From Vasconcelosia minhoensis LEGE 07310 (lineage in GTDB: Bacteria > Cyanobacteriota > Cyanobacteriia > Phormidesmidales > Phormidesmidaceae), in contig NZ_JADEXG010000020.1 of the NCBI RefSeq assembly GCF_015207255.1, positions 1-64,000 on the forward strand: a stretch of 64,000 nucleotides of DNA. Reading direction: 5' to 3'. A model generated the notes under the pieces. The model was not told where the DNA came from and did no database searches. It was given only the letters and a program-made list of their open reading frames with translations. This document shows positions 55,682-59,848 of this stretch, one piece after another (position 1 is the first letter of the stretch; the number at the start of each line of letters is the position of its first letter). The translations under genes and the position numbers were made by a program.

Positions 55682-55713
55682 CTGCGCCCCCGTGAAAGCT
55701 AGGGCGCAGTTTT
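55682..55713 (+). terminator. intrinsic terminator
   Basis: Perfect 8-bp stem CTGCGCCC (55682-55689) and GGGCGCAG (55702-55709) with a TTTT tract directly after. It ends the zinc-ribbon transcript and lies at the 3' end of the convergent rlmN gene. Confidence 0.85.
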
Positions 55714-56791
55714 ATGCTGATTGGCCCGACTGAGAAGCCCTGAGCTGGCCGCAGGCCGCATCTTCTTGCAGTCCCCGAGACTGGCGGACGCTGACGGCAA
55801 TCCCCAAATCCTGGAGCTGCTGCATAAAGGTCTGAACCTGCTGCCGACTGGGGCGCTTATAGTCCACCTCAACAATCGGGTTATAGGGAATGAGGTTAAC
55901 GTGGCTCTGAAAGCCCCTCAGCTGAGCGGCAAGCTCCTGGGCCTGGGCCGCGCTGTCATTCAGTCCAGCCAGCAGGATATATTCAAAGGTGACGCGGCGA
56001 CCGGTCAGCTCGACATAGTCCCGACATTCCTGTAGCAGGTCGGCGAAGGGATAGGGCTGGGCGCTGGGAATGAGCTGGGTCCGGAGGGCCTGATTAGACG
56101 CATGCAGGCTGACGGCGAGGGTCACCTGGAGCCGGTGCTGGGCCAGACGGCGGATATGTCCTGGAATGCCGACCGTAGAAACGGTGATTTGCCGTTGGCC
56201 AATGCCGATGTCCTGATTTAGGCAGCGTACGGCTGCCACAACGCTGTCTGCGTTAAGTAGGGGCTCGCCCATACCCATAAAGACGACATTGCTCACCCGC
56301 TGCTGAAAGTCGGTCTGCACCGTTAGTACCTGATCGACAATCTCATGCAGGGCCAGATTGCGGGCAAAACCGCCTTTGCCCGTGGCGCAAAAATCACAGC
56401 CCATCGGACAGCCGACCTGAGATGAGACGCAGACGGTCAGCCGTTTGGCGGTCGGTATGCCGACGGTCTCGATGATATGCCCATCGCCCAGCCGCAGCAG
56501 ATACTTGACCGTTCCATCTGGGGCCTCCGCCCGATGGTGCAGCTCGGAGCGGCCAATCGCAGCTGCGGCCTGCTCAGCTCGCCACTGTTTGGGAAAGACG
56601 GTGATGTCTTGGAGCAATCGCGCCCCTTTCCGATAGATCCACTGGTGGAGCTGTTTGCCCCGATAGGCGGGCTGCCCCTGGGCCTGCACCCAGGCCGTCA
56701 GCTGGGACAGCGACTGTCCCAGTAGCGGTAGGCGATCCGATTCGACGGCCGATTCTATCGGGGAGACGGTGGGAGGAGTGACAGCGGGCAT
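55712..56791 (-). CDS. rlmN: 23S rRNA / tRNA adenine C2-methyltransferase
   Basis: 359 residues. Radical-SAM Cys triad in [19 protein letters not shown], with GMGEPLLN and the C-terminal methylated-Cys region [10 protein letters not shown]. It makes m2A2503 in 23S rRNA and m2A37 in tRNA. Normal length. Confidence 0.96.
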
Positions 56792-56873: not shown

Positions 56874-57650
56874 CTAGTTATCACCCTCATTCATCAGGTC
56901 TACGAGCCCTTCGGTGAGGGCACGGGGATCCATAAACAGGACCTTAGAGTTATCGCTCTCACCGATCTTTTGATTGGCTTCAACATAGCGCTGGGCCAGC
57001 AAAAAGTTGAGAATTTCGCGCCGACCCTCACTTTTGTCTAGGGCCTGGGCCAGCAGACGCATCGACTGCACCGTGCCCTCAGCTTCTAAAATAGCCGCTT
57101 TCTTTTTAATGGCGGCGGCCTGCTCCTGCTGCATCGATTCGATCACCTCTGGCGGCGGCTTGATCTCCTGAAGCTCCACCCGGTTGACCTTGACGCCCCA
57201 AGGCTCAGTCGCTTCGTCCAGCACGTCGAGCAGTGCCTTATTAATGCTTTCTCGGGAAGAAAAGGTACTTTGCAAATCCATTTTGCCAATTTCCGACCGC
57301 AGCGAGGTGACAACCAGTTCCTGCATCGCAAATTCCACATCTTCGACGGCGTAAAAGGTCTTTTCCAGATCGAGGATTCGCCAGTAAATAATTGCGTCTA
57401 CGCTGAGGCTGACGTTATCGCGGGTGATCGCCGTCTGGGGCTTAATGTCGAGCGTCTGCTCTCGGAGCGTATCTTCTAAAACGACCGTATCTAGAAACGG
57501 AACGATCAGGTTAAGCCCTGGTCGGAGCGTGGTTTTAAATCGGCCCAGCCGTTCTACTAGAGCCTCGTTGCCCTGCTTGACAATACGCACTGAGCCAACG
57601 GTATAGCCAATAATGATCAGCGAGAGAATGGCTAAGATTGAGGAACCCAT
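56874..57650 (-). CDS. SPFH/band-7 (stomatin-like) protein
   Basis: 258 residues. An N-terminal membrane helix (about 4-22) is followed by the SPFH domain with LVERLGRFKTTLRPGLNLIVPFLD and VNRVELQEIKPPPEVIESMQQEQAAAIKKKAAILEAEG. These form membrane scaffolds. An NfeD-like partner lies 58 bp upstream on the same strand, which is the usual pairing. Confidence 0.92.
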   Translation of the reverse strand: MGSSILAILSLIIIGYTVGSVRIVKQGNEALVERLGRFKTTLRPGLNLIVPFLDTVVLEDTLREQTLDIKPQTAITRDNVSLSVDAIIYWRILDLEKTFYAVEDVEFAMQELVVTSLRSEIGKMDLQSTFSSRESINKALLDVLDEATEPWGVKVNRVELQEIKPPPEVIESMQQEQAAAIKKKAAILEAEGTVQSMRLLAQALDKSEGRREILNFLLAQRYVEANQKIGESDNSKVLFMDPRALTEGLVDLMNEGDN

Positions 57651-57708
57651 CTATGGAAACTCCTGAGAGGTGCTCTTTGCATAGCACAGCTGATCTATGA
57701 ATGTCTAG

Positions 57709-57978
57709 CTACGAAGGTTTCGCGGCTACCGGGCGACGGGACTCAACCGCCAGCGGCATAACGAATAGCCTATTACCCTGCCGCCCGACAACGCTAACGG
57801 TCCGACCAGGCGCGATCGCGGTATGCTCTGACGGACAGCGCGCGTTCCACTGGACGCCTTCATGCATCACCTGGCCGACTCCCCCAGCGGCAATGCGGAT
57901 GCGGACCGTAGCTCGCTTGACGATGGCGGCAGCCTGACGCGGCTCCAGCCCTTTGAAAAGGCTATTCAGAGCATTCAG
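57709..57978 (-). CDS. short NfeD-like protein, probable CTG start
   Basis: The minus-strand frame up to TAG at 57709-57711 encodes IVKRATVRIRIAAGGVGQVM, then QWNARCP and APGRTVSVVGRQGNRLFVMPL, the OB-fold of NfeD proteins. The frame has no ATG, GTG or TTG before this domain. CTG at 57978 overlaps the TGA of the upstream kinase gene as CTGA, like the common ATGA overlap. That gives 89 residues, without the membrane helices of full NfeD proteins. It could also be a truncated gene. Confidence 0.6.
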   Translation of the reverse strand: MNALNSLFKGLEPRQAAAIVKRATVRIRIAAGGVGQVMHEGVQWNARCPSEHTAIAPGRTVSVVGRQGNRLFVMPLAVESRRPVAAKPS

Positions 57979-59702
57979 GATAGCGACTTTGCCGAAATGG
58001 CCTGCGGTAGCTCAACCCAAAAGGTGGTGGCATCGTGACCGCTGCTGATGCCAATCTCGCCCTCTAGATGCATTAATAGGCGCTTGACCAGCGCTAGGCC
58101 CAGGCCCGTACCTCCCTGCTTCCAAGGATCGGCGCTGGGAATGCGATAGAACTTATCAAAGATCCGGTCGCGCTCTTCGGGAGAAATTTCAACGCCGGTA
58201 TTGGTTAAGCTCAGGCAAAGCCGGTTGGCTTCGGTGGCCCGAGCGGTCAACCGGATAGCCCCGCCGGGGGGCGTATATTTACAGGCGTTATTTAGCAGCT
58301 CAGCGAGAATTCGCTCCAGGCTAGACAGGTCTGAAACTAGCGGGGGTAGGTCGGCCGGAATGGTTAAATCTAGGGTTTGCTGACGGCTTTGCGCTCGCTC
58401 TTGGAAGCTCTGCATCAGCGACGGCAGCCATCCCGACAGTTGGATCGGCTGAGGCAGAATGGGGTGATTGCCGACGTCGAGTCGCTGGAGGTCAAGCAGG
58501 TCATTGATGAGGCCAATCTCGCGCTCGCATTCCTCTTGCAGAATACGGTAGTAGCGGGCCACGCGACGCTGCTCTAACATCGGCTTTTGCAGTTCGGCGT
58601 TGAGGTCAAATTCCTGATTGAGGGTAACGCCGAGCAGCTGCAGCGCCACCCGCATACTGGTGACGGGGGTACGCAGCTCGTGAGAAACCGTACTCAGGAA
58701 GTCGTCTTTGAGCGTATTCACCCGTTCCAGTTCCTGCACCTGGAGCTGGGCCTCCTGATAGAGGCGAGCCTGACGGATGGCAATCGCGCATTGGTTGGTC
58801 ACCTGCTGCACCAGGCGAATATCCAGCTCCTTGAAGCCGTATTCCGGGTCGTTAATCAGCCAAAGATCGCCCAGCACGCCGCGGTCATCCAGGATGGGAG
58901 AGGCAAACATCGCGACATGGCCCCGCACCGGGTTGGGGATAATTGAACAAAACTGAAGGTACTGACCCTCTAGCAGCTGTGTGTAAACCTCCGGAAAATC
59001 TTCCATCTGGGCAACGCGACCCTGGGAGGAGTGGAGGCCAATTGTATATTCCTGATAGATCGTTGAGGTGCCCTGTTCCAGGTCATAAAGCGCCGTATTT
59101 GCCCCCTTGACGCCGAGGGCTTCGGTCAGCTCCCTCATCGCCGTCTGCAAAATCTGGGCCTCATCCAGGCTGTCGCGGACGCGATCCGTCACCCGCTTTA
59201 GCGTCGCTTCAAAGGCCAGGGCGGTTTGCAGCCGGGTTTGCCCCTCGGTGATTTCCTGCCTGAGGGAGGCGTGCGCCCGCTGCATCTGCTGATTCAGCTG
59301 GGTCAGGGTAGCCAGCGCCAGCTGAGCGGTAACGTCCACCAGGGTATTGACTAGAACCGGCTGCTGGTCGAGCTGAAGCAGGGCACGATGGACAATCAGC
59401 CGCCGCGATGACCCCGATGAAAGCGTCAGTTCGAGTTCAGCGGGCTCGCCTGTGCCGCGGTCAAAGCAGGCAGCGTCATCCTGTCTCAGCTGCTGCGCAG
59501 CGGCCTCGGATAAAAAGGCCGTCTCCCCCAGTTCAATCAGCGCAGCGGGGGTCTGGCCGAGGAGAGCACCGCAGGCCTCGTTGGCATAGAGCCAATGGTG
59601 CTGGGCCGTCTTGACATAGACCGCCGCGGCGATCGCGCCAACCAGGCTGTCGAGAGTGACAGCAGCGGCGGACTGAGCCGGGGGGATGAAATCGGATTTC
59701 AT
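57975..59702 (-). CDS. PAS/GAF sensor histidine kinase
   Basis: 575 residues from ATG 59702; a TTG six bases earlier is less likely. Domains: PAS-like (about 15-135), coiled coil, GAF (about 170-315), HisKA with phospho-acceptor His in STVSHELRTPVTSM, and HATPase_c with LLNNACKYTPPGG (N box) and GGTGLGLALVKRL (G box). No membrane helix, so it is cytoplasmic. No response regulator is adjacent. Confidence 0.92.
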   Translation of the reverse strand: MKSDFIPPAQSAAAVTLDSLVGAIAAAVYVKTAQHHWLYANEACGALLGQTPAALIELGETAFLSEAAAQQLRQDDAACFDRGTGEPAELELTLSSGSSRRLIVHRALLQLDQQPVLVNTLVDVTAQLALATLTQLNQQMQRAHASLRQEITEGQTRLQTALAFEATLKRVTDRVRDSLDEAQILQTAMRELTEALGVKGANTALYDLEQGTSTIYQEYTIGLHSSQGRVAQMEDFPEVYTQLLEGQYLQFCSIIPNPVRGHVAMFASPILDDRGVLGDLWLINDPEYGFKELDIRLVQQVTNQCAIAIRQARLYQEAQLQVQELERVNTLKDDFLSTVSHELRTPVTSMRVALQLLGVTLNQEFDLNAELQKPMLEQRRVARYYRILQEECEREIGLINDLLDLQRLDVGNHPILPQPIQLSGWLPSLMQSFQERAQSRQQTLDLTIPADLPPLVSDLSSLERILAELLNNACKYTPPGGAIRLTARATEANRLCLSLTNTGVEISPEERDRIFDKFYRIPSADPWKQGGTGLGLALVKRLLMHLEGEIGISSGHDATTFWVELPQAISAKSLS

Positions 59703-59848
59703 ACGCAATTTATACGCAATTTAACGGAGACCTGCCTTCACTATTCCCAGTCTCAGCTTAGAACGCCCATCTACACGCTGAGCACCAATAGAATAGGAAT
59801 TAGCTTAGAACAACTGTCCCAGAAATTTTACTGAAATTTCAGTTTCAA

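Follow-up and report, generated by a model that had tools for sequence, protein, structure and literature searches.

The closest described counterparts of the locus analysed here are the short NfeD/SPFH1 pairs, exemplified by NfeD1a (PMC2636767), E. coli YbbJ-QmcA (PDB 8z5g) and P. horikoshii PH0471 (PDB 2exd). The usual short NfeD has 140-150 residues and three hydrophobic stretches, and the excerpts of the same work on which we draw also record 50 genomes that have an SPFH1 gene with no identifiable NfeD, for which loss of the NfeD part has been proposed (PMC2636767).

The locus lies on the minus strand of a stretch of 64,000 nucleotides from Vasconcelosia minhoensis LEGE 07310 (positions 1 to 64,000 of contig NZ_JADEXG010000020.1), the whole of which we call the window. 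An open frame of 89 codons plus TAG (57709-57978), which reads LNALNSLFKGLEPRQ...AKPS and ends at the TAG at 57711-57709, encodes an NfeD OB domain. It is preceded by a sensor histidine kinase gene (57975-59708) with PAS-like, GAF, HisKA and HATPase_c domains, whose first start is the TTG at 59708, with an ATG at 59702, and it is followed after 58 bases, in the same direction, by an SPFH/Band 7 (stomatin-like) gene, the usual NfeD partner, encoding 258 amino acids (56874-57650) behind an AGGAG at 57664-57660. Downstream of the SPFH gene, here and in relatives, stands an RlmN-like radical SAM gene (55712-56791), presumably RlmN itself. As in the short NfeD/SPFH1 pairs, then, a member of the same OB family lies directly upstream of an SPFH gene and in the same direction; unlike a short NfeD, however, the fragment has at most 89 residues, no N-terminal membrane segments and no standard start codon. 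The locus also resembles the SPFH1 genes that lost their NfeD neighbour, a process of which it seems to show a late step, but it differs from other NfeD-less SPFH1 loci in being an intermediate in which the OB part is still legible. With terminally truncated pseudogenes it shares the loss of the 5' half and the start codon, whereas its left-over domain is complete and its frame is open. We consider it likely that the OB frame is what is left, at the 3' end, of a short NfeD gene that was formerly the partner of the SPFH gene, and that it is now a decaying pseudogene which lost its start together with its front half. Our literature searches returned no paper on this locus, and we make no wider claim.

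The Pfam NfeD profile (PF01957), for which the cut-off is 29.1 bits, scores 45.2 bits over residues 21-75 of the frame (57754-57918, minus strand), and five strands are predicted in this region. An AlphaFold2 model made with a 27-row alignment (A1) as input likewise has five strands, and the blocks that span residues 21-70 have a mean pLDDT of 92-94 (77.4 over all residues, with a pTM of 0.59). When this model was given to Foldseek, the best matches were the NfeD soluble domains 2k14 and 3cp0, with 3wwv also found and with weaker matches to 2exd and to 8z5g, the E. coli QmcA-YbbJ complex; a sequence search of the PDB gave one weak NfeD match (3cp0, E 0.048). From the model, the OB domain is predicted to be whole and still foldable. 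The frame has a low coding score of 0.039 bits per codon (of 166 true-gene blocks, 6% score lower, and 13% of off-frame blocks score higher), and one antisense frame outscores it at 0.125 bits per codon, but tests of this kind are unhelpful here because intact NfeD OB regions score similarly low (0.016 to 0.231, n=7).

An NfeD profile was run over as much as 1,500 bases ahead of the SPFH gene at 32 loci, 31 in the window's family and one in an outgroup (a genome search at the level of the order added none to the 63 genomes of the family, and a single genome represents the window's genus). Intact NfeD frames of 152-161 codons from stop to stop precede the SPFH gene at eight of them (G029, G006, G017, G024, G007, G032, G001 and G014). 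Fragments are present at three, namely the window, G016 and G005, the last of which stops at a contig edge; two others (G003 and G010) have too little upstream DNA, merely ~100 bases; and no NfeD was detected at 19, 18 of them in the family and the other in the outgroup, G040. In Leptolyngbya sp. PCC 6406 (locus L032), a 151-residue NfeD that starts at a GTG is followed by the SPFH gene and then by RlmN. When the window is compared with this protein and with the NfeD of G029, homology starts at LFKG, codon 57960, which corresponds to residue 72 of the PCC 6406 protein, late in the third of the membrane segments predicted for it (59-77). Hydropathy analysis found three membrane segments in each of these two proteins and zero in the window fragment, and the NfeD membrane half had no match in the genomes of the window (G000), G016, G004 and G012; a match was obtained in each of four positive controls. 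Two marks of a pseudogene are thereby found here: some relatives have the whole orthologue at this position, and the window's copy has lost a part on which expression or function depends.

The C-terminus of the kinase is complete. It ends with the conserved LP (VP in one homologue) and a tail of nine residues, within the 3-14 seen in 26 homologues. As the kinase end is the usual one and NfeD homology starts at 57960, the join between the two must fall between 58004 and 57961, and this zone (57961-58004) comprises what follows the conserved LP and precedes the first NfeD-homologous codon. The OB frame is the -1 frame with respect to the kinase and overlaps its end, an arrangement that would permit a -1 frameshift to produce a kinase-OB fusion, but the OB frame is open for just 11 codons before position 57978, no slippery heptamer was seen by eye in these codons, and the kinase terminates at its usual place; we find such a fusion scarcely credible. 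The preliminary description had suggested that the gene might have lost its membrane part when the kinase gene came next to it. The intact NfeD genes in relatives, the point at which homology begins and the failure to find the membrane half in the genome all agree with the truncation, but the kinase's arrival is a doubtful cause: its arrival need not have cut NfeD, because kinase and SPFH genes are already close together in the five genomes examined in the sister genus, g13. In all eight genomes with an intact NfeD before the SPFH gene, the best kinase match is located elsewhere. A holin-like gene precedes NfeD in PCC 6406 and G029, and as its best match in the window's genome is elsewhere (contig C114), it is uninformative on the order of events.

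The absence of a standard start codon, which had first drawn attention to this frame, is borne out: no ATG, GTG or TTG occurs between the bounding in-frame TGA (58012-58014), which lies inside the kinase gene, and the OB domain, and the earliest in-frame GTG and ATG, at 57870 and 57867, are within the domain. The sequence also reads as had been described at the CTG proposed as start (57976-57978), which overlaps the kinase stop, TGA at 57977-57975, as CTGA. This CTG had been held to be the only candidate, which it is not, as three other near-cognate codons, ATC 57981, CTG 57969 and CTG 57948, are also in frame ahead of the domain. By simple arithmetic, a C before a TGA stop in the right phase is expected with a chance of about 1/4 x 1/3 = 8%, and the stretch from the upstream stop to the point where NfeD homology begins is 17 codons long, a length over which random sequence lacks ATG, GTG and TTG about 44% of the time, so that neither the overlap nor the missing start requires selection. 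A missing start is a frequent outcome of a random upstream join, while the OB domain itself is no chance match. On direct reading, a two-codon frame, ATG CTC TGA (57966-57974), follows the kinase stop immediately, in a different frame from the OB domain, and its TGA overlaps the second in-frame CTG (57969), again as CTGA. In and beside the join zone, 57978-57964 on the minus strand reads CTGAATGCTCTGAAT, in which CTGAAT occurs twice, three bases apart, giving the two CTGA overlaps.

It might be proposed from this arrangement that the OB frame encodes a working, soluble, membrane-free NfeD which starts at CTG 57978 (or 57969) by termination-reinitiation at the -4 overlap behind the kinase and which binds the SPFH ring from the cytosol. 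Its phase and overlap length are those of the -4 nt termination-reinitiation pairs, and such overlaps (ATGA or GTGA) are the commonest arrangement among overlapping gene pairs in the portion of PMC10666635 consulted. Moreover, the OB domain is modelled as intact and foldable, Pfam names it the partner-binding domain, and a frame under no constraint would probably not have survived for long. Set against this is the start itself, which would be CTG, with no such pair among the relatives examined: CUG is rare and weak, accounting for 0.024% of bacterial initiation codons and working with 0.86% of the efficiency of AUG in the figures quoted in the relevant part of PMC11497404. CTG 57978 and the next five codons lie outside the NfeD homology, and there is no Shine-Dalgarno match (the best anti-SD duplex is -1.7 kcal/mol against a mean of -2.9 for 500 random positions, and the SPFH start, which has a match, reaches -6.9), although this is weak evidence because the kinase and RlmN starts also have none. 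ATG 57974 at the kinase stop would compete as well; in one case of phage coupling described in the same portion of PMC10666635 ribosomes always took the start closest to the stop, a rule which applied here leads to ATG 57974 and yields Met-Leu-stop. The eleven other members of the window's SPFH group manage without an NfeD at the locus, and the window's departures from near-invariant columns, given below, exceed those of 25 intact homologues. The overlap is the sole support for the CTG start under translational coupling that the preliminary description had put forward, and we do not favour it: CTG 57978 looks incidental, and while translation from it is possible, a working gene of this kind is unlikely. 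The ATG at 57974, directly after the kinase TGA and out of frame, could also be the true start if one base too few had been recorded near the join through a sequencing or assembly error. There is, however, no homopolymer run between this ATG and the next stop, the membrane half would be missing regardless, and we regard such an error as very improbable.

In the tree of SPFH proteins, the window (genus g1) is sister to g13 (81/81), followed by g5 (87/80), with g3 joining at 100/99. This group has 12 rows (g3, g5, g13 and the window), and its other 11 have no NfeD at the locus. Genera g6 and g10, which have no intact NfeD at the locus, have no firm place in the tree. NfeD has often been lost in the family, and the window's group does not stand out in this respect, because the group that holds the eight intact rows (86/79, 14 rows) also has five without NfeD (two of g12, one of g14 and two of g2), as well as one at a contig edge. 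The order of genes in the window is PurN, kinase, OB remnant, SPFH, RlmN, and at five g13 loci it is PurN, kinase, a gap of 165-989 bases, SPFH, RlmN (g13 has seven genomes, of which five were examined at the locus, G084 and G085 being left out). In four of these five the gap holds a gene on the opposite strand, the gap of G020 being 165 bases. An open gene that we call MINUS occupies it in G012 and G026; in G035 it holds a weaker relative of MINUS (31% identity, E 2.5e-4), and the frame in G031 is related to that of G035 (45%, E 6e-25). The order is rhomboid, MINUS, SPFH, RlmN in g5 and at four of five g3 loci, MINUS not having been found at the fifth (G028), and in G016, of g6, it is MINUS, NfeD remnant, SPFH, RlmN. 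A search for MINUS in the window's genome, run without a positive control, did not find it; the same protein finds the g3, g6 and g13 loci by local tblastn.

MINUS (L096 4019-4603 on the minus strand, and also at L103-L106, L122, L098 and L101) is an unnamed protein with a DVQVTLRW motif and a signal-peptide-like start, and it is probably secreted. Its gene lies head to head with the SPFH gene in g3 (four of five loci), g5, G016 and g13, and its open frame in G012 and G026 overlaps the end of the kinase gene on the opposite strand.

A sequence of events that would lead to the present arrangement begins with a short NfeD, comprising a membrane half and an OB domain, directly ahead of its partner, the SPFH gene, a state that some relatives still show. 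On the simplest reading, the kinase and SPFH genes would have become neighbours before the lineages of the window and g13 split. After the kinase adjoined the locus, a deletion may have removed the DNA between its 3' end and the middle of NfeD, an interval that would correspond to the gap occupied by MINUS in g13, and the NfeD start codon would have been removed with it. Since then the OB frame would have been a pseudogene, perhaps transcribed with the kinase but not usefully translated, and it may be still open owing either to a recent truncation or to selection on the OB domain having ended only recently. The SPFH gene, with its own ribosome-binding site, presumably works without NfeD, as in relatives. 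We infer the deletion and the order of these steps from a sample that contains no close relative lacking the deletion.

How far the OB domain has departed from its intact homologues bears on how long it may have been free of selection. The reference for conservation was the set of 25 intact rows, with the window and G016 left out and with each intact row tested by leave-one-out; the intact NfeD frame of G010 (L006, on another contig) was among the intact homologues used. At columns conserved in at least 90% of these, the window departs from 5 of 25 and G016 from 4 of 21, compared with 0-3 for each of the 25 intact rows. Of the 16 columns that are fully invariant in the intact rows the window keeps 15 and departs from one, while 24 intact rows depart from none and one row from one. 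Measured against ten closer intact homologues, the window departs from 6 of 26 invariant columns; when these homologues were left out singly, with congeners also removed where close, nine departed from 0-4 of 26-30, and the figure for the outgroup G058 was 2 of 28. The stretch at 57834-57820 (minus strand), which is nearly fixed as QISDV in closer NfeD proteins, reads PSEHT in the window, and as the DNA alignment with PCC 6406 has a one-base gap on each side of it, one in each sequence, a compensating pair of frame changes is possible.

The ratio of OB to SPFH distances gives a less marked picture, with a mean of 2.20 for the window (9 pairs) against 1.95 for intact pairs (sd 0.48, n=36); the window lies within the intact range, so there is no strong excess of change. 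Constraint on the OB domain may be somewhat relaxed, but it is unlikely to have been gone for long. In a neutral simulation, the OB DNA of PCC 6406 was mutated without selection, and survival was scored as an open frame with at least 19 of 22 near-invariant residues. Survival was 52% at 0.05 changes per site, 18% at 0.10, 4% at 0.15 and 1% at 0.20. The relative whose SPFH protein is most similar to the window's is G004, and between these two the synonymous sites of the SPFH gene are saturated. Taken together, these two results imply that the truncation is much younger than the split between the window and G004 or that the OB domain was selected for part of the time since, and it is very unlikely that the truncation is as old as that split with no selection thereafter.

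G016, of g6, has another NfeD remnant with no standard start ahead of its copy of this SPFH gene (L122 3852-4076). Its OB part is 64 codons from stop to stop, with no ATG, GTG or TTG before the domain, and NfeD homology extends upstream of it through two in-frame stop codons. In G005, a congener, the last 36 codons are kept at the contig edge. Over these 36 codons the two differ by seven synonymous and seven non-synonymous changes (dS 0.33, dN 0.09, dN/dS about 0.27), compared with a dS of 0.78 and a dN of 0.13 over the first 186 codons of their SPFH genes. Under neutrality, seven or fewer non-synonymous changes among 14 have a probability of 0.035, which is a hint, from sequence comparison, of some constraint on the g6 OB remnants.

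The part of NfeD left in both the window and G016 is the part nearest the SPFH gene, and this could be taken to mean that it is kept as a cis element, as a promoter or leader of that gene. When the query included the 58-base gap before the SPFH gene, similarity beat all 200 shuffles in G026, G031 and G004, but this disappeared with the OB frame alone as DNA query, for which no trace before the SPFH gene rose above all 200 shuffles in nine gaps (five of g13, one of g5 and three of the five of g3). A sigma-70-type scan of 57600-58100 found nothing, which says little as 0.3 sites are expected by chance, and genera g13, g5 and g3 presumably express the SPFH gene without the OB stretch. We give the cis element only a slim chance.

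With the OB frame read as the remnant of a lost partner gene, what appeared to be a start-codon anomaly is explained as ordinary gene decay, and NfeD would have been caught in the course of its stepwise loss from an otherwise kept SPFH-RlmN locus. If, on the other hand, the OB frame is translated, this would show that the domain with which NfeD binds its partner remains able to function once the membrane anchor is gone. It is tempting to speculate that the domain remained in use as a free, soluble SPFH partner after loss of the membrane half, made at a low level from the CTG by reinitiation, and that OB-only NfeD proteins with non-standard starts are a recurrent half-way state, of which the similar g6 case would be another example, in which the SPFH ring needs a cap but not an anchor; we think it quite doubtful that this is so. 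The window's genome also encodes a second, intact NfeD at L002 on contig C39; counted from its ATG it has ~140 residues, it is accompanied by an SPFH gene (317 aa) of its own, and it might serve both SPFH proteins.

The SPFH protein of the window also differs from most of its relatives. In its coiled coil, after residue 189, exactly 11 residues are missing relative to 24 of the 31 family rows. All seven rows of g1, g5 and g13 share the deletion and the remaining 24 family rows do not have it (the outgroup G040 is likewise short), a pattern which supports the inner grouping of g1, g5 and g13; none of the seven rows with the shortened coil has an intact NfeD at the locus. By their length, we read the 11 missing residues as one coiled-coil repeat.
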